Origin: Anaerobacillus isosaccharinicus
GTDB taxonomy: Bacteria > Bacillota > Bacilli > Bacillales > Anaerobacillaceae
Assembly: GCF_001866075.3 (NCBI RefSeq)
Contig: NZ_CP063356.1
Span: 124,001-188,000 of the forward strand
Reading direction: 5' to 3'
Length of the DNA: 64,000 nt
Position 1 is the first letter of the stretch, and each line of letters starts with the position of its first letter. The notes beneath the pieces are model-generated. The model was not told the DNA's origin and did no database searches. It was given only the letters and a program-made list of their open reading frames with translations. The position numbers and the translations under genes were made by a program. This document shows positions 1,453 through 31,114 of the stretch, piece by piece.

Positions 1453-4400
1453 TTACTTCCAATGATAACCATTAAATGGTGTAAAACCTGAGCCAGAGCT
1501 CGTATCACGAAAATGTGTTCCGTTTATTTTATAAACCTCAGGTCGATTGTTTAATAACCAGGAATCCGTTTTCCAGTTTGTTTTTAACGCCCAATCACCA
1601 CTTGCTCTAGTTGCTCCACTCACACGCCAGCCTGAATGATTTCTTCCATGGCAATGAACATAACAACTGCCTCCACTACTGCCCCTTTCGTAGCGTGGTA
1701 TCTCACTAGATGGAACAGAACTCCAACGGCTTCTTCTACCACTAGTTCCTAATACATTGGGAGATGGCCAACCTACTCGATGATTTATATTCGAATTAAC
1801 ATTTTCTTCTGGAATAGCACCATGCGGTCGATGGCAGTGTTTACAAGTTGCTTGTTTTCCACTACCAGTCCAGTGAGATCTGCTAGTTCCATGCATCCGA
1901 GTAGCAGTTTGAGTTAATTTACTATAATCGTGACAATCAAAGCATAGTGCGTTGCTTTGTGTAAATGTTGTAGCATTCCAACTCCAACCACTCGTCTGTC
2001 TACTTGTATCTTGTCGATAAGGTAGTCTTAACTGCTTTGGATAAGCGGTACCATGAACGTTATGACAAACCTGGCAATCGAATTGTGCATGACCAGACTG
2101 CTCATTATTTGGGTATCCAAAGTAATTATCGGTCCAACTTCCGGTGAATTTTTCATTAGAATGGCATTGATAACAAAAATCTTTTGTATTAGCATTTACG
2201 TTTAAATTCGCTCTTTGCTGTGGTGTAAGATTCCCAATATCTGAACGTAATAATGGTTTTATCTCTGAGCCATGTCTTTCATGGCAAACTAAGCATTGTA
2301 CTCCTAAGTATTCAGCATTGCGTGGGTCGATCCCAGCCAATTCATACATTCTTGGAGAATTATGATTTCGCATATCTGTTGGTAATGGGTAATACGTTTG
2401 ATGATCAGTTAAATATAATCCCACATTTAGCGTTATAGATCCTGTTATCCTAACAGTAGTTTGCTTTAGTCTGTTTGTTCCGCTTTTAGAGATATCATCT
2501 GAATATCCATATGAATAGAATGGTCCAGCGATATTACCATGACAAGTCCAACAATAATCTTTTCCATTAACAACTTCGGTCTTTTTAATATGCTGTGGTG
2601 GATTATTAGTACTTGTTAATAATTTTCCAATTGCAGGTAGCCGATTTCCAGTATCTAAATCAATTCCCGCATCATGAAACTTATGACAATCTGCACATTT
2701 CACCTCTGTTCCTTCATCACCACCTGGACCATAAATTGGGTGAATACTTACATTTTGTGAATTTTGCGTACCAAATTCTTTTTGTGTATTATATTTACTT
2801 CCAAGCCCATTATGACATGTAAAACAAACTGCATTAACAGAGTTACTAGATAATAAGCCTTCTGCTTTTCCATTATGCGTATTATGACAGCTTTTACATA
2901 AATGTGTATTGTTCGTATAATTACCATGTGGCTGAACAAATTGCGAAGACCCGGTAGTAAAAGTTGACAACATGGTTTGACCAAATTGAAGATTTGATAC
3001 GTTCTTAATTTCTGGCCTTATTAAGATTTCATATTCTGTATTAGGTTTAAGCCCTCCATGAATAAATTGAATTTCATTTGGATTTAAAAATACAAAATCT
3101 CCATTTACTTGTTGTCCTGATTTTTCTCTAACAATAAATGTTGACGTTGTAACAGTACTTTGATCAATATGATCATCAAATCTAACTAGGATCGTTTCAG
3201 ATGTTCCTATTCCAGTTGCACCATCATAAGGTCTTTTCAATAGTACGATTGGCGGAGTTATATCAGAATACGTAGCCTCTTCAATTTCCGTACTAATTGA
3301 AAAATTTTCTGAAGTATCAAAGGCAACTACTCGCATTTTATATGTCGCCCCTGGTGTTAATTCTGTTAGAACAACTTGATTATTCAACCCAGAAATCGTT
3401 TTTACTGTTTGAAAACTCTCCATTTGTTGTTGTAACTGTACTTCATATCGATCTACTTGAACATTATCAGTTGAATGATCCCAGCCTACTTCAATAAATG
3501 TTCCGCCCTTGCTTAAAACTCTAATATTGCTAGGGGGTGTCGGCGGTTCAATATCACGGATAGGAACTACAACACTTAATGGAACACTGCCAGCTGAGTA
3601 ATTTCCATTTCCATCAATAGCCATAATTCTAAATGAGTATTCTTCGCCATCAATTACCTCTACTCTATAGCTATTATTAAGTGTTTCTCCCACCTTTTCA
3701 TATAAATTTCCTTCTTGGGTCATCCATATTAAATAGGAAGTAGTAGTTTGATCACCTTCATCCCAAACTAGATCAACATTTGTATACGATAGGGATGTAA
3801 CCGAAATGTTTAGGGGAGTTTCCGGAATGCTAGTAATTGGCAAATTTTCACTACGATTTACTACTTGAACATTACTAGGATTTGATTCATAACCTTCATC
3901 ACTTACTGCTGTTACGAAATAATAATAATTTTCACCCGGATGGGCTATAGGATCAATAAAATCTTTTGAAGTAGTAGTTCCAAGCAAGGAAAAATTATTC
4001 AGGTCATTACTATTTGTACTTCTATACACTTTATATCCTATAACGCTAGTTTCTTGGTTATGTGACCACAAGATTTCAGTACTTGAAACATTATAAGAAT
4101 AAACTGCCTCAAGTGTTGGCGGTATTGGTTTAGTAAAGTCAATTTCTATTTTTACATTATCTACTTCTATCCATGAGAGTGAATTTTCATTTTCTTCAGC
4201 TGTTGCAATCATTGCCGCAAAACTAATGACGTATTCACCAGGGTCAAGAATTGGAAGATTAATAGTAGCATTACCTGTATAGTTTTCATATATTGAATCT
4301 TCAAACCATATAGAGTCTACCCCTTCCCAAGAGGCCCCTTTTGGTTTAATGTAAACGTCTAACTCTTGAATACTACCAGCCCCAACATGACTAGTACCTT

Positions 4401-5505
4401 TTTTCCATGTAAAAGATAATCTCGTATTGTTTATTTCCTCAGGTGCAATATAAAAAGCAAATTCTTCTTTTAAATCAGCATGTGCAATATCTATTTCAGG
4501 TTCATTATTCCGTTCCCATCGAGCTTTACCATTAACAAAAACAAGCCAATCTTTATCACTAGTCCATTTATGATTTGAAAAACCTTCTTCATATACAACC
4601 CTTTCATTATCACTGTAGATATTTACCCCACTAATAGTTATAAAACCAGCTGAATTGACTTCTGCTATTTGTTCATTGATATTATTTTCCTCTATATTTA
4701 TTTCTTCTTGATTCTCTAACTCAACCTCTTCACCTGGAATTTCTAATTCAATTGATTGCTCTTCCTCTTCACCTGGAATTTCTAATTCAATTGATTGCTC
4801 TTCCTCTGGTAATGAATATTCTATTTCAACTAATTGATTCTCTAGAGTGCTTTCTTCATTAATACTGCTTGTAGTAGTAATACCAATTGTATTAGAGATT
4901 GCTGATCTACCAGTATTATCAACAGTTACTACATAATAATCATATGAAGTAGCCGCACTTAGCCCAATATCATGATACATTACGAATGGATCACTCTTTA
5001 CGACTCCAACTTTACTTCCGTCCCGATATATTTCGTAATGATGTACATCTATATCATCCGTAGCATTCCAAGAGAGCTGAACCCAATAGTCACCTTGCAA
5101 ATCAGAATAAATGTTAACTGGTAATGGGTCTGTAAAATCTGTAGTCCGAATTGAAAGCGGAATACTTGGAAATGTTTCTTCACCATTTACGATTGCGGTG
5201 ATTTCATAATGATATAACATGTTTTCTTTGATAGTTGTGTCAATAAAGGAGGTTTGTTGACCGACTGTATCTAGTTTCAGAAATTCGTCTGCTGTTATCC
5301 GATAAATATTGTATCCCGTTGCATCAGGGAAGTAATCCCAAGTTAAATTAAGTTCACTTCCGTTTAATTGAAAACTAGTTAGCCCTGTTGGTCCTTCTCT
5401 TTTTGTATCGGCTAATGTAGAAAAAGCAACTACTCCTGCAATAAATAACAGTACGATTGTAATATAAAGTTTCTTTTTTATACCAAGTTCTCTTATCGTT
5501 TTCAT
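1453..5505 (-). CDS. Giant surface multiheme c-type cytochrome with fibronectin III and Ig-like domains
   Basis: The protein has 1350 residues. An N-terminal hydrophobic segment (about 12-30) is a signal peptide or anchor. FN3-like modules lie near 40-125 and 128-212, followed by an acidic Glu-rich linker (about 215-285) with a 13-residue tandem duplication. A beta-rich module follows (about 290-450), then three more FN3 modules (about 460-755), then a Big_5/SbsA-type Ig-like domain (about 757-855). The C-terminal 490 residues carry nine CXXCH heme sites, including a doubled-CXXCH pair (CKSCH...CFTCH), plus an unusual CYVHCH (CX3CH) near residue 1281. No LPXTG or SLH motif was seen, so the wall attachment is unknown. 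It is the last gene of its operon, 39 bp after the 6-heme cytochrome. The likely role is surface electron transfer or acceptor binding, which is inference. Confidence 0.88.
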   Translation of the reverse strand: MKTIRELGIKKKLYITIVLLFIAGVVAFSTLADTKREGPTGLTSFQLNGSELNLTWDYFPDATGYNIYRITADEFLKLDTVGQQTSFIDTTIKENMLYHYEITAIVNGEETFPSIPLSIRTTDFTDPLPVNIYSDLQGDYWVQLSWNATDDIDVHHYEIYRDGSKVGVVKSDPFVMYHDIGLSAATSYDYYVVTVDNTGRSAISNTIGITTTSSINEESTLENQLVEIEYSLPEEEQSIELEIPGEEEEQSIELEIPGEEVELENQEEINIEENNINEQIAEVNSAGFITISGVNIYSDNERVVYEEGFSNHKWTSDKDWLVFVNGKARWERNNEPEIDIAHADLKEEFAFYIAPEEINNTRLSFTWKKGTSHVGAGSIQELDVYIKPKGASWEGVDSIWFEDSIYENYTGNATINLPILDPGEYVISFAAMIATAEENENSLSWIEVDNVKIEIDFTKPIPPTLEAVYSYNVSSTEILWSHNQETSVIGYKVYRSTNSNDLNNFSLLGTTTSKDFIDPIAHPGENYYYFVTAVSDEGYESNPSNVQVVNRSENLPITSIPETPLNISVTSLSYTNVDLVWDEGDQTTTSYLIWMTQEGNLYEKVGETLNNSYRVEVIDGEEYSFRIMAIDGNGNYSAGSVPLSVVVPIRDIEPPTPPSNIRVLSKGGTFIEVGWDHSTDNVQVDRYEVQLQQQMESFQTVKTISGLNNQVVLTELTPGATYKMRVVAFDTSENFSISTEIEEATYSDITPPIVLLKRPYDGATGIGTSETILVRFDDHIDQSTVTTSTFIVREKSGQQVNGDFVFLNPNEIQFIHGGLKPNTEYEILIRPEIKNVSNLQFGQTMLSTFTTGSSQFVQPHGNYTNNTHLCKSCHNTHNGKAEGLLSSNSVNAVCFTCHNGLGSKYNTQKEFGTQNSQNVSIHPIYGPGGDEGTEVKCADCHKFHDAGIDLDTGNRLPAIGKLLTSTNNPPQHIKKTEVVNGKDYCWTCHGNIAGPFYSYGYSDDISKSGTNRLKQTTVRITGSITLNVGLYLTDHQTYYPLPTDMRNHNSPRMYELAGIDPRNAEYLGVQCLVCHERHGSEIKPLLRSDIGNLTPQQRANLNVNANTKDFCYQCHSNEKFTGSWTDNYFGYPNNEQSGHAQFDCQVCHNVHGTAYPKQLRLPYRQDTSRQTSGWSWNATTFTQSNALCFDCHDYSKLTQTATRMHGTSRSHWTGSGKQATCKHCHRPHGAIPEENVNSNINHRVGWPSPNVLGTSGRRSRWSSVPSSEIPRYERGSSGGSCYVHCHGRNHSGWRVSGATRASGDWALKTNWKTDSWLLNNRPEVYKINGTHFRDTSSGSGFTPFNGYHWK
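4725..4807. repeat. 39-bp in-frame tandem duplication in the cytochrome linker
   Basis: Two identical 39-bp units (4725-4763 and 4764-4802) are followed by five bases of a third. Each encodes a 13-residue acidic block, EEEQSIELEIPGE. The perfect identity suggests a recent duplication that lengthened the linker between the FN3 stalk and the next module. Confidence 0.9.
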
Positions 5506-5544
5506 GGCTTTTCACCCGCCTTGTAGAAATCCTCTATTATTTTA

Positions 5545-6798
5545 TTATTTCTTATGACACTCTTGACAAACTCCCATATTATCTAACCTTCGAAGATGAC
5601 TTTCGCCTGTATAAGCATCTAGCTTTTTTGTGCCATGAGCAAAATGGCATGTAATGCAAGTTACTTTTGATTGACTATTTGGAGCAGGTGGTCGTACCGT
5701 ACTTGCTTCTAGGACAGAGCCATCATCAACAAACGTAAAAATTTCATTTTCTAATTGGAAGCGGTGTCTATTGGTATCAGTACTGCTTCTTGCTACCAAG
5801 CTATATGATTCAAGTGCGGTTGGCTGATTTGCAAGTGGTCCCGCACGATATACAGAATAATGCACTGCATTATTAATATACTCCCACTTTAAAATAACTC
5901 TCCCTGTAACAGGAACATTGACTCTTTTTATATAGCCTTGGTGTGATTCTTGAAGTTCTTCTACCTTTTCTCCATCAATAATATTTGTAGTTATATTACT
6001 TGCGGTGATAATATAGTAATAATTATTTGCCCCAGAAAACAGAGTACCTCCACCTGCTAGAGTTGATGTATTTGGATTTGGATACGCTCCTGAAGGTGCC
6101 CCTTCCGTTGGTAAAGTAGTAAAACGAATTTCTCCTTTACTGTCTAATCCTACATTAATTGGGTGACGGTGCTGTGTTTTATCAATAACTTCTGGTTGGC
6201 TATTGGTATATTGATAATCATTATGACAAGCGCTACACATGTTACTAATACCGCTTTCATATGATGGAATTTCTCGGTTTGTAAAAAAACTTCTAGTAAT
6301 ACTACCCTTTACAACAATTCCTTCCTTACCATTAATAACATTATTTATTATTCGATAATTATCACTACCATGTGGATTATGACAACTAGTACAAGTAAGA
6401 AAAATACTTTCTCCCGCCCCACCTTTTGGAGCATTCATTTCTTCGATTGAGTGTGACGAAGTAAATCCAGCTGCTGGATTAAATCCGCCGCCAAGACTAT
6501 CAATTTTAATACTTTCAAATTCACTTATTTGATAATCAGTTTTTCCATTTTTCACATCATACTTACTGCCTCTACCATCATGGCACATATAGCAAGTATC
6601 TCTTACTGTTGTAGCAACAAGTAATTTTTCAGCTTTTGCCCTGTGGGTCGAATGACACAAACTGCAAACATTCGTATTATTTGTATATTCACTATGAGGA
6701 TTTTCATAATCTCTATTACTACTCCCCTCAACTACAGGAGTAAAAATGAAATAGAAGAAGGAAAATACTAGCAAGTATAAGTATTTATTTTTCATCAT
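5545..6798 (-). CDS. Secreted 6-heme c-type cytochrome, doubled-CXXCH family
   Basis: The 417-residue product opens with a signal peptide (hydrophobic residues 5-22, then VVEGSS). Six CXXCH motifs are present: CSLCH and CYMCH as a doubled pair with the family spacing, then CTSCH, CSACH, CITCH and CQECH at the very C-terminus. Between hemes 4 and 5 (about residues 235-360) lies a heme-free segment with an FN3-like strand pattern. The N-terminal doubled motif resembles the paired heme motif of the neighbouring 1350-residue cytochrome. An AAGGAGGG ribosome site precedes the start; the second Met is an equally good start. It lies 26 bp after the NHL gene. Heme attachment would occur outside the membrane. 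Confidence 0.9.
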   Translation of the reverse strand: MMKNKYLYLLVFSFFYFIFTPVVEGSSNRDYENPHSEYTNNTNVCSLCHSTHRAKAEKLLVATTVRDTCYMCHDGRGSKYDVKNGKTDYQISEFESIKIDSLGGGFNPAAGFTSSHSIEEMNAPKGGAGESIFLTCTSCHNPHGSDNYRIINNVINGKEGIVVKGSITRSFFTNREIPSYESGISNMCSACHNDYQYTNSQPEVIDKTQHRHPINVGLDSKGEIRFTTLPTEGAPSGAYPNPNTSTLAGGGTLFSGANNYYYIITASNITTNIIDGEKVEELQESHQGYIKRVNVPVTGRVILKWEYINNAVHYSVYRAGPLANQPTALESYSLVARSSTDTNRHRFQLENEIFTFVDDGSVLEASTVRPPAPNSQSKVTCITCHFAHGTKKLDAYTGESHLRRLDNMGVCQECHKK

Positions 6799-6823
6799 TC
6801 TCCCTCCTTAAATCTAATTTGTT

Positions 6824-7768
6824 TTATTTTAACTTCAATATAAAAGTTTGGTTGCTCCCTTTATCAACTATATACAGTCGATTATTGGCTACTTCTAAGC
6901 CTTCTGGAAAATTGAGCTGTATATTTTTCTTATTTAATTTCGAAATTATCTTTTTCTCTTTTCCTTCATGAGTTGTAACAACAACTCTACTATTAATTGG
7001 GTCAGTTATATAAATATTTTCATGATCCACTGCTATTCCACTTGGCATTCCGAAGCTTCCTTTAAAGCTATACTGAAAAATCCCTTGCTCATTAAAAACT
7101 TGAATTCTGCCGTTCCCCGTATCAGAAACAATAATATTTCCTTCGGGTAAAACTGCAATATCAAATGGATATTGGAACTGTCCATCTCCATTACCTTGAG
7201 TCCCAAATGAAAGAACTAAGTTTCCATTGAGAGTGAATTTTTTTATTTGATGATCAAATTTATCGAAAAAATATAAAAAGCCTTCAGAATAAGTTACTAT
7301 TGTTGGATCAATTAACATGCGATTTTCCACATAGAAATTTTTAAGGAATTGACCTTCTTTACTAAAAACTGCAATTCTTTGGTTAATTAAATCTACTATA
7401 TAAAAAATTTCATCATTGTCTACGGCAATACTAACTGGGTAGTTTAAGATCGCCTCAACATCTTCGCTATCTTCTCCTCCAAAGTGAAATAGAAATTCTC
7501 CTTTCTTATTAAAAACTTGAATTCTATTATTATCACTGTCAGTTACATATAGGTTCCCACCATTAGTTACTGTTAAGTCTAAAGGGCTACTTAATGGAGT
7601 TTCTTTATTACCTTTTACAATAAGCTCTAATTTAAAATTTTCTTCCTTACCAAAATTAAGTATCTCTATAGCAAATCCTTTACTCATAAATAAGAAGTAG
7701 CCTATACCTAAAACGATTACACTTATGATCGAGAGTATCACATAGCTTCTTTTTTCTTTATTGGACAT
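6824..7768 (-). CDS. Membrane-anchored NHL-repeat beta-propeller protein
   Basis: About 314 residues. An N-terminal transmembrane anchor (roughly residues 10-28) is followed by repeated NHL units such as LDLTVTNGGNLYVTDSDNNR, VDNDEIFYIVDLINQR, VLPEGNIIVSDTGNGR and VDHENIYITDPINSR, typical of a six-bladed propeller. The ATG at 7766-7768 is preferred over a GTG three codons upstream, because the GGAGGTG ribosome site overlaps that GTG. Located between the Fe-S gene and the 6-heme cytochrome gene, it is probably a scaffold outside the membrane. NHL proteins often accompany multiheme cytochrome clusters. No catalytic residues are recognisable. Confidence 0.82.
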   Translation of the reverse strand: MSNKEKRSYVILSIISVIVLGIGYFLFMSKGFAIEILNFGKEENFKLELIVKGNKETPLSSPLDLTVTNGGNLYVTDSDNNRIQVFNKKGEFLFHFGGEDSEDVEAILNYPVSIAVDNDEIFYIVDLINQRIAVFSKEGQFLKNFYVENRMLIDPTIVTYSEGFLYFFDKFDHQIKKFTLNGNLVLSFGTQGNGDGQFQYPFDIAVLPEGNIIVSDTGNGRIQVFNEQGIFQYSFKGSFGMPSGIAVDHENIYITDPINSRVVVTTHEGKEKKIISKLNKKNIQLNFPEGLEVANNRLYIVDKGSNQTFILKLK

Positions 7769-7825
7769 CAACTTCACCTCCGTTACATGTTATTTATTAG
7801 AAGATTTCAAAATTTTGGAGTCTCG

Positions 7826-8797
7826 TTAAATAAGTTTTTCGTGTAACGTTTTCCTTTTCAATAGATCTTCGTTTAACTTTGTTTCTGTTGATCGATTTAT
7901 ATATAAACAAGTATTCTTGCAAATTTCACAGTCAATGCATTTCATCATTTGGAATTGTAGTATCTCTTTTTTTGTGTTAGAAGTAATACTAAGGGCACCA
8001 ACAGGACAATTTTCCACACAATCTCCACATAGTATACATTCATCACTAACTTCGATCTTAACTAACTTCAAGGCCTTTGCTAGTTTTTTTGATAAATATT
8101 GTTCCTTTTGGTCTATTTTCAAGTATTCCAACAAATAGGTTCGATTTAAAATTTCACCGATATTTTCGTTGTAGCTACAAGAGGTCAAATTAGTTTGTTT
8201 TTTTAATCGTCTAGTAATGACGTCAAATAAGTCAATAGCTCTCCTTTTTAAAGGACTTTCTTTCATTTTTTCATATTGCCCATTGATAATTTCTACATGA
8301 CAGTTAGATAAATAATTTAATTCTTGAAGATAACTAATTGATTTTTTCATGCTCCAATTATTCTTACATGTTTTACAAGTATTTTTATCAAGATAAATTT
8401 GAACGGGTTTTTTATGAACAAAAGCTACAAATAACAATTCAGGAGACAATATCGATAAGCACGGAACTGTTATATCGCCTTCAAACTTAATATTTTGATC
8501 ACATGTGAAGCAAACTACTTCTGAGCGTTTTATTTTTTCTTCGTACTTATAGATAACATCTGTTTCTAGATGAATGGCATATGTTGGACAGTGATAGATA
8601 CAAAATTTACAATTTTCACATTTTGAATAATCTAAATTTAGTTTTCCATTATCAAAGAAAAGGGCTCCAGGTTGGCATAGTTCTATACACGTTGTACAAA
8701 TTGGAGTTGTTCTGTTTGAATTTAGACAGTATTCTTCAAAAAGAACTCCTTGAAAATTTCTAACCCCAATTTTCTTTTTGAGTAATGAAAACCACAC
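7826..8797 (-). CDS. Cytoplasmic multi-cluster 4Fe-4S ferredoxin-like protein
   Basis: The 323-residue product has no signal or membrane segment. Two ferredoxin-type modules are visible: one near residues 33-75 (CTTCIELCQPG followed by CENCKFCIYHCP) and a classical one near 255-300 (CILCGDCVENCP followed by CIDCEICKNTC). The middle region (about 95-145) has further cysteines, CFTC, a VPCLSILSPELL element and CKTC, recalling the cysteine-rich parts of hydrogenase or heterodisulfide-reductase accessory subunits. The start is GTG, eight to nine nt after AGGAG. As first gene of a four-gene operon behind an Fnr-type box, it could connect cytoplasmic reductant to the cytochromes. Its partner is not known. 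Confidence 0.8.
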   Translation of the reverse strand: MWFSLLKKKIGVRNFQGVLFEEYCLNSNRTTPICTTCIELCQPGALFFDNGKLNLDYSKCENCKFCIYHCPTYAIHLETDVIYKYEEKIKRSEVVCFTCDQNIKFEGDITVPCLSILSPELLFVAFVHKKPVQIYLDKNTCKTCKNNWSMKKSISYLQELNYLSNCHVEIINGQYEKMKESPLKRRAIDLFDVITRRLKKQTNLTSCSYNENIGEILNRTYLLEYLKIDQKEQYLSKKLAKALKLVKIEVSDECILCGDCVENCPVGALSITSNTKKEILQFQMMKCIDCEICKNTCLYINRSTETKLNEDLLKRKTLHEKLI

Positions 8798-8843
8798 CTA
8801 GAGTCACTCCTTTAACTTTTTGTTGAAATATAGTGTAATTGAC

Positions 8844-8859
8844 TGTGATATTTATCACA
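8844..8859. promoter_or_regulatory. Fnr/Crp-type palindrome upstream of the Fe-S/NHL/cytochrome operon
   Basis: The site reads TGTGA-TATTTA-TCACA, a perfect match to the TGTGA-N6-TCACA consensus bound by B. subtilis Fnr. It lies 47 bp upstream of the GTG start of the Fe-S gene, where an activator site would be expected. A second half-site, TGTGA, is at 8867-8871. This suggests oxygen-responsive induction of the operon. Confidence 0.7.
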
Positions 8860-8944
8860 CTGTTTTTGTGACTTTTGACACTGTAGATTAAGAAAGCATA
8901 TTATATGCTAAAAAGTATGAGATACTGTAAAATATAAATAAAGT

Positions 8945-8979
8945 ACTAAAGTATGGAAAGATACTTCCCATACTTTAGT
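8945..8979 (-). terminator. Terminator between the two cytochrome operons
   Basis: A perfect 12-bp stem (ACTAAAGTATGG / CCATACTTTAGT) with an 11-nt loop follows the 561-residue cytochrome gene. Its minus-strand exit is AT-rich rather than a pure T-run. It probably separates the upstream five-gene unit from the Fnr-box operon. Confidence 0.6.
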
Positions 8980-9000
8980 TTTAAGGTTCTTTTTTCTTCG

Positions 9001-9030
9001 GCTATCATTTAGTTGCCGCTAAATGGTAGC
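9001..9030. repeat. Inverted repeat just after the 6-heme cytochrome stop codon
   Basis: GCTATCATTTAG and CTAAATGGTAGC form a 12-bp stem with one wobble around TTGCCG. It lies 4 nt beyond the stop at 9035 and lacks a T-run on the minus strand. It could stabilise the 3' end of the transcript, upstream of the terminator at 8945-8979. Confidence 0.5.
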
Positions 9031-9034
9031 TATT

Positions 9035-10720
9035 TTAATCTCCTGAAGGAGGTAATACTACTGGTCTTGTGGTTGGATCAGCAATCATTCCACTTGGAGC
9101 TAGTGGATCACGATTTGTATTCTTAATTGTTGTCGCTTTTGAACTATTGTGACAAGCCCAACAACCAGACATACCGGTAAACTTCTTTAAAGCTGAAGAT
9201 GGATTTTTATCTAGCATATAATCTTTAGCATTTTCTAAAGACAGAGTCTCATTACCATCAACTTTAAACGGAGCACGTTCTGCTAATTCATAAATATTCT
9301 CACCCATACCGTCTACCATTATTTCAACATCAGAACCATGAGCATAATGGCAACGTAAGCAAGTATATGTCGCACTACTTGTTGTATGACCATATGAAGT
9401 TTTGTTAGCTTCAAAGATTTTTGTCGATGGGTCTTTAGATGCTGCTTGAACGTAGTCTGTATGGCAGCTTCCACAAAATACTGACATTTGAATTCCACTA
9501 GCCTTAGTAGCTGCAGTCCATAAATCAGGTACATCGTGTTTAGTTACTACATTTGACATACCAGGAACTGGATCAAGTTTTAGCTTAACTTGGTAAGCAC
9601 GACCAACTCTTGCTGTTACAAGATTATCTAAATTAGTTGTTTCAGAGTAAATTAGTCCTTTATCATACTTTAGGCCGACAGTTCCAGCACTATAATCATA
9701 ATGGTCAATAACTTTACCATCGTCATCTTTATGATATCTATTTTGGCTATCAAGAGTTACAGATTCAGTAAAGAATTGAACCTCATAACCATGTCTTGTA
9801 TCTCCACTACCACGATTATATGAATATAACCAAGGGTTTGTTGTTTTTGTATAGCTCCAAACTGCTGGATTACCTGTTGATGTAAGCTCATAAATCATAA
9901 TAACAGTTGCAGCTGGAATATCTTCATATCCAGTAGTTAATGAATGTTCTGCTTTTGTTCCTCTTACTGCCTTATATTTAACTGCACCTTGAGCAGCGCC
10001 TGTATTTCGATCAGCAAAATTCACAACAGAAACCATGTTTGCTTGAATACCACCAGCGGTTGCAGGCGTTAACCCCATGTTATTTGGATTGTAATGTAAC
10101 AAACGATCACTGTATGATCCGTGTGGAGCATGACAACTTGCGCAAGTGAATAGTCCGTCCCATGAACCTGTACCTGTTGGATTACCACCTGGGGCTGCTT
10201 TGATTTTTACAGCTCCAGTTGCTAAGTGAACACTCATGTTTCCTGCATGGGTCCCACCGAATGTACCAGCAGTACTTGGGCTATCAAAGAATGCTTCTCC
10301 GCTTTCATATACGTTATAAAAACCTAATGTTCCATCATGACAAGCTGAGCAAGTTTGAGCTGTGCTATCAGCAAATAATAAATTTCTCGATGATGCTGTA
10401 TGTGTTTGGTGACAGCTTGCACAAGAGTTTGTGTTGTTTTGATATGAACCATGTGTTTTGTGATCCTTAAGAACGCCATGGTTATCAAGCATATCCGTAG
10501 ATTTAATTACACCTTCAAAGTTTTCCCCTGGTTCATTTACACCAACCCCAGTGTTATTTGCATTGGGGTTGATTGTTCCTGTATCCTCAGGGTTCATTTC
10601 TTTATTATGCTCTACCCCTGGTGATGTTCCCGGTGGATTCGGTCCTTCTGCAAATGAAGATGTAGCCATAAACCCTAATAATAATATAAAACATATAATA
10701 CTAAAACTTACTTTTTTCAC
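9035..10720 (-). CDS. Secreted 6-heme c-type cytochrome (561 aa), doubled-CXXCH family
   Basis: A clear signal peptide (KKVSFSIICFILLLGFMATSSFA) precedes a Pro/Asn/Gly-rich N-terminus. Six CXXCH motifs follow: a doubled pair CASCH...CSACH, then CASCH, CGSCH, CLRCH and CWACH. A long heme-free stretch of about 200 residues, rich in Tyr, Gly and Thr, separates hemes 3 and 4 and may be a beta domain. The start is GTG, 8 nt after GGGGAGGT. It is the last gene of the upstream operon, behind an NHL gene, the same NHL-then-cytochrome order found at 7768-5545. The likely role is an extracellular electron carrier. Confidence 0.9.
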   Translation of the reverse strand: MKKVSFSIICFILLLGFMATSSFAEGPNPPGTSPGVEHNKEMNPEDTGTINPNANNTGVGVNEPGENFEGVIKSTDMLDNHGVLKDHKTHGSYQNNTNSCASCHQTHTASSRNLLFADSTAQTCSACHDGTLGFYNVYESGEAFFDSPSTAGTFGGTHAGNMSVHLATGAVKIKAAPGGNPTGTGSWDGLFTCASCHAPHGSYSDRLLHYNPNNMGLTPATAGGIQANMVSVVNFADRNTGAAQGAVKYKAVRGTKAEHSLTTGYEDIPAATVIMIYELTSTGNPAVWSYTKTTNPWLYSYNRGSGDTRHGYEVQFFTESVTLDSQNRYHKDDDGKVIDHYDYSAGTVGLKYDKGLIYSETTNLDNLVTARVGRAYQVKLKLDPVPGMSNVVTKHDVPDLWTAATKASGIQMSVFCGSCHTDYVQAASKDPSTKIFEANKTSYGHTTSSATYTCLRCHYAHGSDVEIMVDGMGENIYELAERAPFKVDGNETLSLENAKDYMLDKNPSSALKKFTGMSGCWACHNSSKATTIKNTNRDPLAPSGMIADPTTRPVVLPPSGD

Positions 10721-10816
10721 TAGATTTACCTCCCCGTTTAATTTTTTTTTTTATTTTCTAACTCTATATCTGACGATCCCTTACAACCACCCCCTTAAAA
10801 GTTAAATGAATTACTA

Positions 10817-11788
10817 TTATTGAAAAACAGAAATCCTTTGGTTAATAGTATCAGTGATGAAAATTTTATTGTTTTCATCAATGTACAATCCGTTAGGCAG
10901 ATATAGCTGTCCTGGTCCTTCTCCTAAGCCACCAAACTGAAATAATTCTTTTCCATCTTTATCAAATCCATAGACTATATGAGTTAAATTACTAACAACA
11001 TAAATTGTTCCACTCGAACTTATTCCAATTCCTCTAGGATTAACGAACACGGAACTGCCATCCGAACTACTAGCACCATTGATAATGTTTAGAAAGTTAC
11101 CTTCTTTATCAAAGCTCTGAACACGTTGATTGCCTGTATCTACAACATAGATATTACCTTCGCTATCAGCTGTTACAGCGTTAGGAGCTAAAAATTGTCC
11201 TGGGTTCTCTCCAAATCCTCCTATTTCTAGCGTTATTTCTCCTGACATATTCAACACAATTACTTTATTAGCTTGAATGTCAGTTACATAAACATGATTA
11301 TTTATAATCCTTAATCCTGCGGGTGATGTAATCCTCTTTTCCTTACTTAAATTTGGAGCGAAGTATTCTATAAATTCACCTTTTGAATCATGGATAGAAA
11401 TATCACCATTGTACATATCAGCTACGAAAACTCTACCTTGATTGTCACCGGAAATGCCATAAGGAAAATTAAACTTACCTGGGCCCTTGCCAGCCTCACC
11501 AAATGTAAATAACGGTGCTCCTGCCAAATCAAAAACTTGAACCCTTTTGTTATTTGTATCCGTAACGTAAATAAATTCATTCGTTTTTGTAACATCCATT
11601 GGTTTATTTAAGGTTAGCGCAAAGTCGCCGTGAAGAAAGTCAGTAAATCTTGGAGCGCCATTACTGCTATCAAACCCCTGCAAACCTGTTGGTAATGCAT
11701 AAGATGAATTGGCAAAAATTAAACCAAACACTACGGTGTTAATTATGATAATTGCAACCATCCCAACATAAACTGTTAGTCTATTCAT
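10817..11788 (-). CDS. NHL-repeat beta-propeller protein with N-terminal anchor
   Basis: About 323 residues. A hydrophobic segment at about residues 5-28 anchors or exports the protein, and the rest is a set of NHL blades: NEFIYVTDTNNKRVQVFD, GRVFVADMYNGDISI, NHVYVTDIQANKVIVL, GNIYVVDTGNQRVQSFD and NKIFITDTINQRISVFQ. The ATG at 11786-11788 is preferred, because GGTGAG lies 5 nt upstream; an alternative GTG two codons earlier overlaps the TPR stop. It is a paralogue of the NHL protein at 6824-7768, and each precedes a 6-heme exported cytochrome. A scaffold or docking role is inferred. Confidence 0.83.
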   Translation of the reverse strand: MNRLTVYVGMVAIIIINTVVFGLIFANSSYALPTGLQGFDSSNGAPRFTDFLHGDFALTLNKPMDVTKTNEFIYVTDTNNKRVQVFDLAGAPLFTFGEAGKGPGKFNFPYGISGDNQGRVFVADMYNGDISIHDSKGEFIEYFAPNLSKEKRITSPAGLRIINNHVYVTDIQANKVIVLNMSGEITLEIGGFGENPGQFLAPNAVTADSEGNIYVVDTGNQRVQSFDKEGNFLNIINGASSSDGSSVFVNPRGIGISSSGTIYVVSNLTHIVYGFDKDGKELFQFGGLGEGPGQLYLPNGLYIDENNKIFITDTINQRISVFQ

Positions 11789-11790
11789 TG

Positions 11791-12561
11791 TCACTCACCC
11801 ACATTTTTAAGTTCATTTTTTTCGATCCGGTCTAAAGCCACTGCTGCATTTTCATAAAGCGGGTCATATTGGAGTGCATCTTTATATATTTCAACTGCTG
11901 TTTTTAAATCACCTTGAGCCTCAGCAACTAATCCGATTTGATATATAATGTCAGAATTAGCAGGCGCTAGCTTGTTTGCTTCATTAAGTGCATTTAAAGC
12001 TTCTTCTAACATGTTTAGGTGTCGGTAGGTAATACCTAATTGTGCATGACCTTTATAATCTCTTGGTGCAATATCTACGGTCTTTCCAAACATAGATAAT
12101 GCTTCATAATGTTTTTTTTCATCCAAGTAAACTAACCCTAGATTATAGTAAGCGTCATAATACTTATCATCTTGGTCTAAAACGTATTTAAACTCTTGAA
12201 TGGCACTATTATTATTTCCTTTTAAATAATGGGTATAGCCTAAGATAATTCGGTCTTCTAAGCTGTTAGGATTTATTTTTACCTTTTCTTCATAGAAAGC
12301 TAGCTGTTCATTGATTCTTTTTGCTTCCAAGCTGTTCCAAAAGTAAAAGTGACCCAAAGCATAACCTCCACCAGTACTGAAAAATAACGTTAATGTTAGG
12401 ATTGTAATTGCTTGTATTTTTGTAAACGTTTTATTAAATTTTTTAGACGTGACTCCTCCTTTTTCATTTTCAAAATCTTGTAATAGCTCTTTTCGAATTT
12501 GCTCTCTTAACTCTCTTTCTGTTTGCTCGTCTAAAGGTGATTTGGAATTGTTAGGTTCCAT
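11791..12561 (-). CDS. Membrane-anchored TPR protein
   Basis: About 256 residues. A charged cytoplasmic N-terminus (residues 1-50) leads into one transmembrane helix (about 53-75) and then five or so tetratricopeptide repeats (YDAYYNLGLVYLDEKKHYEAL, YKGHAQLGITYRHLNMLEEAL and others). The start chosen is the ATG 7 nt after AGGAGGG. It is translationally linked to the NHL gene. TPR proteins such as NrfG and CcmI help attach heme to multiheme cytochromes in Gram-negative bacteria. A similar maturation or assembly role here is plausible but inferred from context only. Confidence 0.8.
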   Translation of the reverse strand: MEPNNSKSPLDEQTERELREQIRKELLQDFENEKGGVTSKKFNKTFTKIQAITILTLTLFFSTGGGYALGHFYFWNSLEAKRINEQLAFYEEKVKINPNSLEDRIILGYTHYLKGNNNSAIQEFKYVLDQDDKYYDAYYNLGLVYLDEKKHYEALSMFGKTVDIAPRDYKGHAQLGITYRHLNMLEEALNALNEANKLAPANSDIIYQIGLVAEAQGDLKTAVEIYKDALQYDPLYENAAVALDRIEKNELKNVGE

Positions 12562-12581
12562 TTTCATACCCTCCTGTTTGT

Positions 12582-13742
12582 TTATTCGCCTTCTCTTTTA
12601 CTAACGGTATGACATTTGGTACAAGTAGTTTCGACATGACAATTTAAACATGTTTTTTCAAACTTTTGATTATCTGGTATCGGAACTGGGTGTCTTCTTT
12701 TCCATTCACTTTTGTGATTACTAGGATGACAAGATGAACACGAAATGTTCGTAACAGGCGTTTCTGAAAATGCTTGATTTTCATGACATGTAAAACAAGT
12801 ATCTTTTGTTTCATCTGCTAACCTACCGTGATTCATTAAAAATAGACGGTCATTATGACTATTCGGTCGAACACTGTGGCAAGTAATACAGTATGTGTTT
12901 GTTTTTGCGTACTGTTGAACTGTGAAAAGTTTTTCTATTGTATCAGAATTAATGTATTTCATGTAGTTTGTTTGTTCACGGAATTCTTTAATTGGATTTT
13001 TCGACATATATGAGTGACAACTTTCGCAATACATTAGATCTTGAGAAGCCAAATTTCCGTGCTTCCCTTTTAGAAAATCATCTTCTTCATGGGTTTCTGG
13101 GAGCATTCCTGTGGTATGACATGTCTCACATGTTAGGGGGGCACCCCTCAGTTCATGGCAATCCATACATTTTGACATCACTGGCCTTACAGATTTTTCG
13201 TCTTTCATAAACCTTTTGGCAAGCGTTTCATTCCAACGTTGATAATCACTTTTATACGTAACTCGTTTCTCAGACACCTTTCCATGAGCAACACCATCAT
13301 GGCAGGTTACACAGGCAACTTCCTTAGTTTCATGAATATCATGGTCTATAACGATATCCCCGGATGTTGAAACATCTCGATTTGACATGTTATGGCAAGC
13401 AGTACATGATTCATTAGGAATATAGCTAGGCATCCTAATTGGCGCGATATAGTTATCTGTTATTGTATGGTATAGCTGTTTAATGCCTCCCGCTTTTTGT
13501 TTCGCTAAATTTTCCAATCCTGGCTGTACGTGGCATTGTACACATTCGACTTGGCTATGTGAGGATGCCTCCCAAGTTAATACTTGTGGTTTCATACTAT
13601 GGCAATTTGCACAAAAGCTAGAAGATGATGTTGCATGAACACCGATTTTTAATATAAAGGCTGCTCCAACAATTATTATGATTAGAACAGTCATAAACTT
13701 TATGATCTTTAGCTTTTTGGATAAAGACTGTTCCTTCTCCAT
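12582..13742 (-). CDS. NapC/NirT-like membrane-anchored 12-heme cytochrome c
   Basis: About 386 residues with one N-terminal transmembrane helix (about 15-38) and twelve CXXCH motifs: CANCH, CVQCH, CTACH, CVTCH, CMDCH, CETCH, CESCH, CITCH, CFTCH, CSSCH, CLNCH and CTKCH. The first four resemble the tetraheme quinol-oxidising head of NapC/NirT/CymA, including SHSQVECVQCH and KQLYHTITDNY. The remaining eight extend it. The start is the ATG 6 nt after GAGGTG. It follows the 10-heme paralogue and precedes the TPR gene by 20 bp. It probably takes electrons from menaquinol or from the 10-heme partner and passes them outward. Confidence 0.88.
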   Translation of the reverse strand: MEKEQSLSKKLKIIKFMTVLIIIIVGAAFILKIGVHATSSSSFCANCHSMKPQVLTWEASSHSQVECVQCHVQPGLENLAKQKAGGIKQLYHTITDNYIAPIRMPSYIPNESCTACHNMSNRDVSTSGDIVIDHDIHETKEVACVTCHDGVAHGKVSEKRVTYKSDYQRWNETLAKRFMKDEKSVRPVMSKCMDCHELRGAPLTCETCHTTGMLPETHEEDDFLKGKHGNLASQDLMYCESCHSYMSKNPIKEFREQTNYMKYINSDTIEKLFTVQQYAKTNTYCITCHSVRPNSHNDRLFLMNHGRLADETKDTCFTCHENQAFSETPVTNISCSSCHPSNHKSEWKRRHPVPIPDNQKFEKTCLNCHVETTCTKCHTVSKREGE

Positions 13743-13815
13743 AAGTGTCACCTCTCACAATTGTTAGTTGGTTGACCTTTAGTCAATAGTTAATTATTTC
13801 AAACTAACATTCTAT

Positions 13816-15087
13816 TTATTTTGCATCTTTTAATCCAGTTCTATGGCAGAACATGCAATATACATCAGTTGCTGCAGTTTGACTTTCATTTTTTTCGTAA
13901 TCGTGACACACGTAACATTCTCTTTTTTGCTGCTTAGTTTCAGCAAAATCAGCGTGACCAGTGAGCCATTCTTCATCATCACCGTGTCCTGGCGGACGTT
14001 CAGTGTGACATGTAAAACAGAAAATACTATTTCGCGATTCACTCTTTACCACAAAGATATCTGGAACATAGAATTCTAGATTTGGCTTACTTCCAGGGTT
14101 TAAAATTTCGTCAATTGAAGTAGCAGCTACTCGTTTTATCCATTTTGCTTCTTCATGGCAGGTTAGACAGTTGTTTAAGTCAGTTAATGCATAGCTGCCA
14201 TGGTTTTCATTCCAGCCATGTTTCTGGTGATTTAACGGTGTAGCAACTTCTAGATGACATGTTAGGCAATCCATTGAAAGCTCCACATCGCCATGTTGTT
14301 TACCTAGTCCTTGCAAAATCAGATTTGATGTATAGGACTTGTCATCCACTTTGTGCCCTTCTTCAATTGAGCTTGGTGGTGATGACATGACGTATGAAAT
14401 ATCTTCCCATGGCTTTAATCCTTGGTTTACTTTATCATGACAGTCAATACAAGTACCCATATTAGGGCTAGTGTAAGCAGTTTTAACTAAGATATCTGCA
14501 TTTTCCTCGATCCAGTGATCGTATGCATCATGTGTATTAAGACCTCTTTCAACAACTTTTGCATGTGCTACACCAGAGTGACATGTTAAACAAGGTATTT
14601 CTGCCTCAATATGGCCTTCATGATTAACAATTAAATCACCTGTGGCAGTTACCATCCGGTTAAATGAGTGACACTTAACACAGACAACATCTTCAACTTT
14701 TTTATGAGCATAAATTGGATTAGGAACAGTTCTGGTAACATGATGGTACAATTCCTTCATTGCGCCGATTTTTGATTTTATTTTATTATCAATACCTGGC
14801 TTAATATGGCAATCGACACAATTTACTTGACTGTGTGAAGTAACTTTATGAGTTACAGCTTCAGGAGACATTTCATGACAGCTTGCGCAAAATGTATTCG
14901 TAGAGGTTGCTGCAATTGCCCCGTATGAACCTCCTGCTAATCCTATGAAAGTTAACACTAAGAAAAATAATAGCTTCCACCTATTTAGTGGATCTTTCCA
15001 ATCTGTGGTTTTAAAGCGCTTCCACAGCCTTTTAATAACCGACCCTCTTTTAGCTTTTCCTTCTATAATTTCATCTTCCTTATTCAT
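13816..15087 (-). CDS. NapC/NirT-like membrane-anchored 10-heme cytochrome c
   Basis: About 423 residues: a basic cytoplasmic stretch, one transmembrane helix (about 38-60), then ten CXXCH motifs (CASCH, CVDCH, CVKCH, CLTCH, CIDCH, CLTCH, CLTCH, CFTCH, CYVCH, CMFCH). The head aligns by eye with the 12-heme neighbour (SHSQVNCVDCH, KELYHHVTRTV), so the two are paralogues. The ATG at 15085-15087 is preferred, with GGGGGTGG 5-7 nt upstream; an earlier ATG at 15100 overlaps that site. This is the first gene of the cytochrome locus, directly behind two copies of the TGTGAA repeat module. Quinol oxidation is inferred from the NapC-like head. Confidence 0.88.
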   Translation of the reverse strand: MNKEDEIIEGKAKRGSVIKRLWKRFKTTDWKDPLNRWKLLFFLVLTFIGLAGGSYGAIAATSTNTFCASCHEMSPEAVTHKVTSHSQVNCVDCHIKPGIDNKIKSKIGAMKELYHHVTRTVPNPIYAHKKVEDVVCVKCHSFNRMVTATGDLIVNHEGHIEAEIPCLTCHSGVAHAKVVERGLNTHDAYDHWIEENADILVKTAYTSPNMGTCIDCHDKVNQGLKPWEDISYVMSSPPSSIEEGHKVDDKSYTSNLILQGLGKQHGDVELSMDCLTCHLEVATPLNHQKHGWNENHGSYALTDLNNCLTCHEEAKWIKRVAATSIDEILNPGSKPNLEFYVPDIFVVKSESRNSIFCFTCHTERPPGHGDDEEWLTGHADFAETKQQKRECYVCHDYEKNESQTAATDVYCMFCHRTGLKDAK

Positions 15088-15112
15088 AATTTCCACCCCC
15101 ATGTAGTTATAT

Positions 15113-27278: not shown

Positions 27279-27316
27279 AAAAGCGAAGGAATAATCCTCC
27301 GCTTTTCTTTTTTAAA
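27279..27316. terminator. Bidirectional terminator between the coiled-coil gene and deoD
   Basis: AAAAGCGAAGGA and TCCTCCGCTTTT pair around ATAA, with T-rich exits on both strands. It serves both convergent genes. Confidence 0.85.
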
Positions 27317-28019
27317 ATTGAATAGCTGTATCTAAAGCAATTTCAACCATTTCACCGAACGTTTTTTGACGTTCTTCAGAAGTTGTTTCTTCTCCTGTTA
27401 GGATATGATCGCTAACTGTCAAAATTGAGAGCGCTCTTACTCCAAATTTCGCTGCTAATGTATAGAGGGCTGTCGTTTCCATTTCAAGAGCCAAAATGCC
27501 ATGCTTTGCCCAATTTTGAACTGCTTCTTTATCTTCATTATAAAACGTGTCGCTCGTAAACACGCTTCCTACATTTACTTTTTTATTACGGCTAATTGCG
27601 ATATCATACGCAGCTTTTAATAAATCAAAATTAGCTGTCGGAGCAAAATCGATTCCTTTAAAGCGAATTTTATTTACTGCAGAATCTGTTGACGCACTCA
27701 TTGCAATAATTAAGTCCCTAACTTTTACATCTGCTTGGATCGCTCCACACGTTCCAACGCGGATTAAGTTTTTAACGCCATAGCTTTGCATTAATTCTTG
27801 AGCATAAATAGATATCGAAGGAATTCCCATTCCTGTTCCTTGCACTGAAATACGTTTCCCTTTATATGTTCCTGTATACCCAAGCATTCCACGTACTTCG
27901 TTATAACATGTTGGATTTTCTAAGAAGTTCTCAGCAATAAATTTTGCTCGTAACGGATCTCCTGGTAGTAAGATTGTTTCTGCTATTTCATTTTCTTTTG
28001 CCCCTATATGTACACTCAT
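27312..28019 (-). CDS. deoD: Purine nucleoside phosphorylase, DeoD type
   Basis: The 235 residues match the hexameric PNP family in full. [17 protein letters not shown] binds phosphate at the N-terminus, [18 protein letters not shown] and RVGTCGAIQ follow, LEMETTALY binds the ribose, and LTVSDH carries the catalytic Asp. It splits purine nucleosides with phosphate to base and ribose-1-phosphate in the cytosol for salvage. TAGGAGG precedes the ATG. It stands alone here, not next to other salvage genes. Confidence 0.97.
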
Positions 28020-28487: not shown

Positions 28488-28520
28488 AAAGGGCTAACCT
28501 AAATTCTAGGTCAGCCCTTT
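28488..28520 (-). terminator. Terminator of the HesB-like gene
   Basis: AAAGGGCTGACCT pairs with AGGTTAGCCCTTT (one mismatch) around an 8-nt loop, 5 nt beyond the TAA. The minus-strand exit TTTAATAA is only moderately U-rich. Confidence 0.75.
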
Positions 28521-28525
28521 GTCTT

Positions 28526-28807
28526 TTAGCAACACTCATTAACCCCAACCATTACAAGGCCAGAACCTTGTGGTGTTTCTTGGAAATCAAGTGTTAATTG
28601 CTCTGTTTGGTCTTTAATGCTTTTTTCAAAAGCTACTTGAACACCGTTGATTGTTTCTACGATATCCTGGTCTGTTGCCTCATCCAGAGACAAACCTAGT
28701 TTTGGACCGCCTCAGCCCATACCTGCAAAAATGACTTTAATTCCTTTTGCGTTGTTTTCTTCAAGAACACCTTGAATAAACGACTTTGCTTCATCTGTAA
28801 TTTTCAT
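28526..28807 (-). CDS. HesB/IscA-like protein, apparent selenoprotein with in-frame UGA at codon 32
   Basis: An ATG at 28805-28807 opens a 93-residue HesB-like frame broken only by TGA at 28712-28714. The context is AGMG-U-GGPKLGLSLDE, where relatives have Cys (AGMGCGGP). Both halves are in the same frame and both fit the family: EAKSFIQGVLEENNAKGIKVIF before, and IVETINGVQVAFEKSIKDQ after, ending in NECC. Replacement of the conserved metal- or cluster-binding Cys by UGA is the hallmark of selenocysteine, and HesB-like selenoproteins are a described bacterial family. A terminator follows directly. A nonsense mutation of Cys (TGC or TGT to TGA) or a sequencing error is the alternative. Standard gene callers miss the gene because of the UGA. 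Confidence 0.78.
28672..28711 (-). promoter_or_regulatory. Candidate bacterial SECIS element
   Basis: Directly after the UGA, RNA bases 8-21 can fold as CAAA-ACUAGG-UUUG, giving a short stem whose 6-nt loop holds two G at 16-17 nt from the UGA, within the range of bacterial SECIS loops. Outer bases GUCC and GGAU can extend the stem across a 3' bulge. The fold was done by eye; energies were not computed. Confidence 0.4.
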
Positions 28808-29020
28808 TTTTTCACCTCAAAGATATCATTCATCAATTATTTAAAGAAAATAATTCGTAATTAGCGTACCAATATTTATTATTATTCACAAGCAAATCGA
28901 CCTCTAAACATGAATTTATTTTACTCTCCATAATAGAGGCTCTATCCCTTGGCATCATTGTCAATTAATTCCGTATTCTCATATGGTCCTGTATCAAAAG
29001 ATTGTTAAACGAAAAAAAAT

Positions 29021-29194: not shown

Positions 29195-29368
29195 CAAGAT
29201 CTCCCCCGCTTTATTGAGAATAATTTTCAATATCATTATATGCTACTTTTACTAAAACTTTCAAGTATTTTCTAAATTTTTATTAAAAGTTCACAATTTT
29301 ATGAATTCGCCTTTAATGGTTGACAGTCTAATTGTTGTTCTGTAACCTTATACATACAATTCAATACC

Positions 29369-29592
29369 TTCGTTAGGTGAGGCTCCTATGCTGGAGAGAC
29401 GCTACTGCCCAAAAATGTCCAAAGACGCCAATGGGTCAACAGGAACTATCGACATAAGGTGGTTTTTAATGTAGCTGGATGCAATCCTATGCCGCATAGT
29501 GCTAAAGCTCTACGATTAGAAGGTCTAACCGCATGTTTAAGCTTATTTTAGTATGCCCATTTAACACCTTCTTTCGTAGAAGGTGTTTTTTG
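29369..29592 (+). promoter_or_regulatory. mgtE: M-box (ykoK-type) magnesium riboswitch with terminator
   Basis: The aptamer (about 29369-29532) shows the M-box conserved blocks in order: CGTTAGGTGAGGCTCCTATG, CTGGAGAGACGCTACTGCCC, AAATGTCCAAAGACGCCAAT, GGTCAACAGGAACTATCGAC, AAGGTGGTTTTTAATGTAGC, and CATAGTGCTAAAGCTCTACG. An intrinsic terminator follows (AACACCTTCT / AGAAGGTGTT, 29563-29587, then six T). Mg2+ binding is expected to favour the terminator and shut off the downstream transporter. A TTGACA lies upstream at 29320-29325, with only a weak -10. Confidence 0.95.
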
Positions 29593-29740: not shown

Positions 29741-31114
29741 ATGGTAAAATTAGACCAAGAAAATCGTGCTGGATATACAAAACAGTTAATTGAAACTCTT
29801 AACGAGCAAAACATCACGGATTTTAGAGAGTTATTTTTTGAATTACATCCTACAGATCAAATCGATGTTTTTAATTCAATAACAAAAAAACAAAGAATTA
29901 CTGTATATAAATATATATCACCAGAGGAATTCGCTGAAATTTTCCAAGGATTAGAGTTATATAAGCAAAAGCAATATATCGCTGAGCTGCAGCAAAACTA
30001 TGCTATAGACGTCATTAACCATATGTCCTATGATGACATTGCTGATTTTTTAGGCGAACTGCCCGAAATCACGAAAGATCTTTATTTAGGCATGATGGAA
30101 AAAGAAGAAGCCGCAGAAGTTATTCACTTGTTAAAGTACGAGGACCAAACTGCTGGAGCTATCATGACTACAGAATTTATCTCTGTTTCTACAACGGAAA
30201 CTGTTAGCGACGTTATGGTACGGTTAAGGACTGAAGCACCGGAAGCCGAAACGATTTATTACTTATATGTTATCGATCATCAGTTTAGATTAGTTGGGGT
30301 TGTTTCTTTACGAGACTTAATTATTTCTCCGTTAGAAGAAACGATTGAAGAGGTTATGTTATCAAGAGTTAGAGCAGTTGAAACACATACTGACCAAGAA
30401 GAAGTTGCACGGATTATTAGAAAATATGACTTTTTGGCCATTCCCGTAACTGCCCAAGGGAAGCTCGTCGGTATCATCACAGTAGACGATATTATGGATG
30501 TTGTAGAAGAAGAAACTGAAGAAGACTTTGGTGAGATGTTCGCCGTGAGAGGTTCTCTTGATACTAATGTCACTTCCTATACAGCTGCAAAAAAGCGTTC
30601 ACCATGGATTATTATGTTAATGTTTCTTGGTCTTATAACAGCAGGTGTAATTGGTCAGTTTGAAGAAACACTAGAGGAAGTTATCTTACTTTCGGTTTTT
30701 ATACCTCTTATAATGGGTTCAGCTGGAAATACCGGAACACAAGCACTAGCTGTTGTTGTACGTAGCTTAGCTCTTGGCACTGTAGATAGATCAACTATAA
30801 GTAAAATGCTTCGTCGCGAATTTGGAACCGGAATAATGCTAGGTATTATTTGTGCTTTTACTCTACTGATTTTAATACCACTGATCTACCCTCAAGGAGG
30901 TTTTTGGTTAGCTGGTATCGTTGGTTTATCTTTATTCGTCACACTTAGCATCTCCACAATGGTAGGTGCCACTGTACCATTAATTATTAACAAACTTAAA
31001 ATAGACCCTGCTGTTGCATCCGGTCCATTTATTACGACAATTAACGATTTATTAGGTTTAATTATTTACTTTTCTATTGCTACTGCTCTTTTAGATTATA
31101 TGCCACCCCAATAA
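29741..31114 (+). CDS. mgtE: Magnesium transporter MgtE
   Basis: 457 residues with the full MgtE layout: an N-terminal superhelical domain (about 1-125), two CBS domains (about 130-255, with AGAIMTTEFISV and LVGIITVDDIMDVVEEE), a connecting helix, and a five-helix membrane domain (about 285-455) containing the pore signature PLIMGSAGNTGTQALAVVVRSLALG. It is a Mg2+-gated Mg2+ channel of the cell membrane, closed by Mg2+ binding to the cytosolic domains. Expression is under the M-box just upstream, so Mg2+ controls both synthesis and gating. AAAGGAGG precedes the ATG. Confidence 0.97.
   Translation: MVKLDQENRAGYTKQLIETLNEQNITDFRELFFELHPTDQIDVFNSITKKQRITVYKYISPEEFAEIFQGLELYKQKQYIAELQQNYAIDVINHMSYDDIADFLGELPEITKDLYLGMMEKEEAAEVIHLLKYEDQTAGAIMTTEFISVSTTETVSDVMVRLRTEAPEAETIYYLYVIDHQFRLVGVVSLRDLIISPLEETIEEVMLSRVRAVETHTDQEEVARIIRKYDFLAIPVTAQGKLVGIITVDDIMDVVEEETEEDFGEMFAVRGSLDTNVTSYTAAKKRSPWIIMLMFLGLITAGVIGQFEETLEEVILLSVFIPLIMGSAGNTGTQALAVVVRSLALGTVDRSTISKMLRREFGTGIMLGIICAFTLLILIPLIYPQGGFWLAGIVGLSLFVTLSISTMVGATVPLIINKLKIDPAVASGPFITTINDLLGLIIYFSIATALLDYMPPQ

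Follow-up and report, generated by a model that had tools for sequence, protein, structure and literature searches.

A HesB/IscA-like gene of Anaerobacillus isosaccharinicus with an in-frame UGA codon probably read as selenocysteine

Introduction

A stretch of 64,000 nucleotides of the Anaerobacillus isosaccharinicus genome (contig NZ_CP063356.1, positions 124,001 to 188,000 of the forward strand; hereafter the window) contains on its minus strand a HesB/IscA-like frame of 93 codons followed by a TAA stop, whose lone internal stop is a UGA at codon 32. The question raised by this locus is whether the UGA terminates translation or is decoded and, if decoded, as which amino acid. On comparative evidence from related loci, it is very probably read as selenocysteine (Sec; probability about 0.96), and the product would be a HesB/IscA-like selenoprotein of about 10 kDa.

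Reading frame and conservation of the UGA codon

The translation begins with MKITDEAK and ends with VNECC, and the UGA is situated in AGMG-UGA-GGPKLGL. As the initial annotation foresaw, routine annotation would miss or truncate the gene: translation with table 11 terminates at codon 31, the list of open reading frames (ORFs) has a 55-aa restart past the UGA (28526-28693), and the curated family models give scores below their cut-offs. The description of a 93-codon HesB-like frame broken only by the UGA, where relatives have cysteine, agrees with the translation and with an alignment of 46 sequences, in which codon 32 falls in a column occupied by Cys, and not Trp, in the 13 Cys-type homologues. 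The family pattern does continue in the same frame on both sides of the UGA, and the coding constraint is alike there, with mean nonsynonymous (dN) and synonymous (dS) rates of 0.098 and 1.04 before the codon and 0.098 and 0.92 after it, calculated for six of the seven genus copies; the seventh (L027) was left out because its frame is broken. All seven genomes of the genus that were searched keep the UGA, with neither TGC nor TGT found at this site in sister species, which makes a sequencing error very improbable.

The hairpin downstream of the UGA

The bacterial model of the selenocysteine insertion sequence (SECIS) calls for a hairpin that closely follows the UGA and has a G among its first two loop positions. 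Both features are found in the HesB-like gene, where a hairpin of 7 bp starts 18 nt past the UGA and its UGGAU loop begins after 25 nt. A loop with two G had been proposed at about 16 nt; the loop is present and conserved, but the distance was underestimated.

The hairpin was compared between 72 Sec loci (67 listed TGA rows, a paralogue from the same genome, L072, and four further loci; 69 distinct segments) and 23 Cys loci (L057 and 22 of the 48 no-TGA rows with expectation value E<=1e-9, with L058-L064 uncounted). Pairing is retained in 483 of 504 pair cells of the Sec loci vs 58 of 161 of the Cys loci, and a full set of five core pairs is seen in 67/72 and 0/23, respectively, while the UGGA loop is found in all 72 Sec loci. 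The covariation run on the 69 distinct Sec segments revealed double changes in five of the seven pairs; the cells with double changes number 49 against a shuffle mean of 10.6 (reached in 0 of 500 shuffles, a count that overstates independence, see below), and the covariation score is 0.371 vs 0.158 for shuffles and at most 0.092 for slid controls. The same helix is given by RNAalifold, and six of the seven pairs appear in the single-sequence fold. Of the 15 TGA loci given by a scan of 299 genomes of the same class, three had already been used to define the hairpin and one of the remaining 12 (L144) repeats L055; of the 11 new loci 10 keep the core, L146 being the one without it, and all 11 have the UGGA loop. 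Rfam at gathering thresholds found no SECIS family in the window. Judging from these comparisons, SelB carrying selenocysteyl-tRNA(Sec) would bind the hairpin and thereby enable insertion of Sec at codon 32.

As the hairpin lies within the coding region, its pairing limits which residues can occur together, and the RNA signal thus shapes the protein. The fourth stem pair involves the residues Sec+8 and Sec+12, which are Ala-Pro in 43/72 and Ser-Ala in 15/72 Sec loci, both combinations keeping the pair; the commonest combination at the equivalent positions of Cys loci, Ser-Pro (13/23), breaks it. The Leu codon at the junction of stem and loop is CTG in 72/72 Sec loci vs 2/23 Cys loci. Sec lineages that have the hairpin can be paired with Cys lineages that lack it, a natural experiment on SECIS gain and loss.

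Selenocysteine machinery and its co-occurrence with the gene

The genome is a single contig of 5.23 Mb. The initial annotation had named selA, selB, selC and selD as the genes to look for, an absence of selA, selB or selC counting against its proposal, and all of them are present: selA (553.9 bits), selB (357.2 bits) and selD (401.9 bits) score over the cut-offs, and selC, coding for tRNA-Sec, occurs as two identical genes over the gathering score, with the anticodon TCA. selD itself carries an in-frame UGA.

In a sample of 199 genomes of relatives, the matches listed were typed by hand as TGA or no-TGA, with the main table limited to E<=1e-9. The UGA-type gene is found in 51 of the 199 genomes (that of A. 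isosaccharinicus included), and selA accompanies it in 51/51 vs 3/38 genomes with only no-TGA genes. At least 11 genomes have a second UGA-type HesB-like copy. Two genomes (G015 and G037) carry both UGA-type and no-TGA HesB-like genes and are useful for comparing the two forms.

Family assignment and predicted fold

The protein matches the HesB-like selenoprotein models significantly but below their cut-offs (NF038090, IscA_HesB_Se: 55 bits, cut-off 85, E 7.7e-15; TIGR01911, HesB_rel_seleno: 49.2 bits, cut-off 66.35, E 6.2e-13), and PF01521 (Fe-S_biosyn) gives 24.9 bits, just under its gathering score (26.3). Each of the 46 aligned members is matched by both NF038090 and TIGR01911 at E<=0.001. 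In the same class, Bacilli, TIGR01911 is matched at E<=0.001 in 244 of 299 sampled genomes and over its cut-off in none (0/299), while in the class of genome G472 (by inference Clostridia) 13 of 391 genomes have matches over the cut-off. The UxGP motif and IscA/HesB homology, which broadly define HesB-like selenoproteins, are both present. C92 and C93 are kept in at least 90% of the aligned sequences.

An AlphaFold model was obtained with a predicted local distance difference test value (pLDDT) of 91.3 and a predicted template modelling score (pTM) of 0.79. Its best fold match is E. coli IscA (1r94; template modelling score (TM) 0.82, E 2.1e-6), and residue 32 falls on a Cys of AQ_1857 (1nwb) in a profile alignment. 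According to the model, the product would fold like IscA, placing Sec32 where the superfamily has its first conserved Cys and Cys92-Cys93 at the end.

Evaluation of the selenocysteine reading and its alternatives

Several observations weigh against a selenoprotein. Of the 96 selA-bearing genomes, 45 lack a UGA-type gene at E<=1e-9, and in three genomes with selA only no-TGA forms occur. Both the Fisher value for co-occurrence with selA and the shuffle counts overstate independence because the loci are related by descent, and the p-value is indicative only. The hairpin alone is of ordinary stability (z -0.18; equalled or bettered by 89 of 200 shuffles), and stability was rejected as SECIS evidence, only the comparison between loci being informative. 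The strongest UGA-bearing TIGR01911 match elsewhere (L175, 103.7 bits) lacks the hairpin core at the same offset. The scores fail the cut-offs of NF038090, TIGR01911 and PF01521, the frame of the genus copy L027 (genome G003) is interrupted near codon 9, 5' of its conserved UGA, and a conserved partner gene that would support a function was not found. Finally, the last three residues, both C-terminal Cys included, are modelled poorly (pLDDT 49), and therefore the putative metal site is unsupported by the model.

If the UGA were a true stop, the locus would be a pseudogene or code for a 31-residue peptide, as the table-11 translation and the frame break in one genus copy might suggest; such an outcome is very improbable, however, given a dN/dS ratio of about 0.1 both before and after the UGA in the six genus copies, a codon kept across genera and tied to selA, and a covarying hairpin directly after it. 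Bacillus species are able to read through UGA at low rates, and a decoding of the codon as another amino acid, e.g., Trp, without selenium could be proposed on this ground, although nothing in the present analysis supports it. This is more improbable still, since the Cys-type sequences have Cys and not Trp at this position, the genome has the full Sec gene set, and the hairpin core is missing from all 23 Cys-type loci. The smallest chance of all is left to a sequencing or assembly error for TGC or TGT, for which no support was found, as TGA recurs in independent assemblies of the genus and in other genera, and selA is present in all 57 genomes with a TGA-type row among the matches listed (to about E 6e-5). 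Selenocysteine at codon 32 thus remains the best explanation of the locus.

What the selenoprotein does is a separate matter. Because Sec32 and Cys92-Cys93 occupy the positions of the conserved Cys of A-type carriers, these residues probably coordinate iron or an Fe-S cluster, in the manner of such a carrier, or perform a selenol/thiol redox step; we give an iron or Fe-S role an even chance. That the protein is no Fe-S carrier but a thiol/selenol oxidoreductase, or one that binds a metal(loid), is a real possibility that falls somewhat short of that. It is in keeping with the failure to recognise by eye any isc or suf gene among the ORFs of 130 aa or more that L052 and L054 contain, on which no domain search was run, while the IscA-like predicted fold and the retention of one Sec/Cys and two C-terminal Cys speak for the carrier.

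Genomic neighbourhood and other features of the locus

The features of the locus are collected in Table 1. The proper start claimed for the gene was confirmed, the ATG being directly preceded by a ribosome-binding-site-like sequence. The claimed terminator is no more than possible, because the inverted repeat directly after the stop has no U-tract behind it and is not among the matches of the terminator scan.

Table 1. Features of the HesB-like locus and its surroundings in the window
Feature	Position	Strand	Basis
HesB/IscA-like selenoprotein gene (probable), 93 codons + TAA; ATG 28807-28805, TAA 28528-28526	28526..28807	-	translation; sub-cut-off NCBIfam/Pfam matches; 46-sequence alignment; dN/dS
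UGA codon 32, probably read as selenocysteine; aligned with Cys of Cys-type homologues	28712..28714	-	translation, alignment
Putative SECIS hairpin (5' arm 28693-28687, UGGAU loop 28686-28682, 3' arm 28681-28675)	28675..28693	-	Sec/Cys pair counts, covariation, fold
Codons Cys92-Cys93 and stop; remaining conserved thiols	28526..28534	-	conservation in the aligned sequences
GAGGTGA, ribosome-binding-site-like, before ATG	28812..28818	-	read from sequence
Inverted repeat 3' of gene, possible transcription terminator, without U-tract	28488..28520	-	read from sequence
Purine nucleoside phosphorylase-type gene	27312..28019	-	family match
M-box magnesium riboswitch ahead of mgtE	29362..29528		Rfam, sole match in window
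mgtE	29741..31114	+	family match
Multihaem cytochrome cluster	1453..15102

Among genes with a family match, the closest are the purine nucleoside phosphorylase-type gene on one side and mgtE on the other. A purine nucleoside phosphorylase gene is found near the HesB-like gene both in the window and, by eye, in L052, and was not seen near it in L054. The UGA-type gene shares a contig with selA in 24 of the 51 genomes and is within 50 kb of it in 12 of 51, A. isosaccharinicus not being one of the latter. Deducing the function from neighbours was rejected, as neither the proximity of purine nucleoside phosphorylase nor the linkage to selA yields a mechanism.

The multihaem cluster comprises five proteins with 6 to 12 CxxCH motifs, together with NHL-repeat, 4Fe-4S and NapC/NirT-type proteins, and possibly represents an extracellular or metal-respiration electron pathway. 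The initial annotation described the HesB-like gene as lying next to a large cytochrome locus; in fact the two are about 13 kb apart.

Other UGA-containing genes and the tRNA-Sec repeat

The paralogue L072 (G000:C1:4648938-4649168) is a further HesB-like gene of the genome; it has diverged, and it too carries a UGA in frame and a hairpin of the same type (CACTC-UGGAC-GAGUG), but has neither the GGP motif nor the C-terminal CC. A genome-wide search with the strict pattern CTCTGGANGAG gave six matches, and was rejected as a route to further selenoproteins, since only the window gene and L072 have convincing UGA frames. Three formate-dehydrogenase-like genes carry an in-frame UGA (L170, L173 and G000:C1:1837990-1838736), with a hairpin GUUGCC-GGUCU-GGCAAC after the UGA of the FdhA-like L170. 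Between selD and selA there is a small CxxU gene with an in-frame UGA, SelW/Rdx-like by eye (L017:2496-2792, with the true start inside the ORF). The identical tRNA-Sec genes (L009 and L010; G000:C1:3587722 and 3725088) are located on the same strand, 137 kb apart, inside a repeated stretch of some 290 nt (95% identity); one copy is followed by a 327-aa ORF, tyrosine-recombinase-like by eye, and the other by a shortened version of it. This arrangement perhaps reflects an element integrated at selC.

Comparison with known systems

HesB-like selenoproteins are, as the initial annotation held, a described bacterial family: excerpts of PMC1794560 give a count of 11 proteins in 2006, and those of PMC5029168 a count of 90 in 86 organisms in 2016. 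In the PubMed Central literature searched, no paper on such a gene in Anaerobacillus was found. For Bacillales, the excerpted 2006 count is three selenoproteins of three families (PMC1794560). An example in a bacillus had been called notable, which holds less than stated because 51/199 genomes carry the UGA-type gene. Since the curated models leave the Bacilli genes below cut-off, a Bacilli-specific model combined with the hairpin would recover such genes. A wider picture can be drawn tentatively: Bacilli would have their own widespread branch of HesB-like selenoproteins, scoring below the cut-offs of these models and in some genomes duplicated, in which SECIS pairing dictates the permitted residue combinations and whose function may be a distinct one, perhaps, to speculate, in anaerobic or selenium-oxyanion respiration. 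We regard this as rather doubtful as a whole.

The gene shares with the established HesB-like selenoproteins (TIGR01911, NF038090) the significant profile match and the position of Sec within a U-x-G-P motif, the latter appearing with TIGR01911 in the excerpted 2026 listing of PMC13188914. It differs from them in the C-terminus: the aligned Bacilli members mostly end in -CC, and those of the G472 class in other Cys patterns. A hairpin scan of 17 loci of that class, with a motif filter, gave 14 UGA loci, of which 10 have the complete five-pair core at the same offset (incomplete in L175, L190, L191 and L199) and 13 the UGGA loop; two of the three loci over the TIGR01911 cut-off keep the core, L175 being the one that differs. 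As HesB-like selenoproteins have been described and relatives from another class share the hairpin, the gene is a HesB-like selenoprotein gene of an already described sort, in a Bacilli branch that does not pass the curated models. The FdhA-like gene L170 of the same genome is similar in having a hairpin shortly 3' of the in-frame UGA, with a GGUCU loop in place of UGGAU. With the IscA/SufA A-type Fe-S carriers (PF01521) the protein has in common the predicted fold (1r94, 1s98, 1x0g and 2d2a) and the alignment of Sec32 with a Cys of AQ_1857, but the IscA and SufA chains that match best are 14-24% identical to it, it would have Sec where the carriers have Cys, and it ends in CC, while the genome's own IscA-like protein (L073) ends in CGCG.
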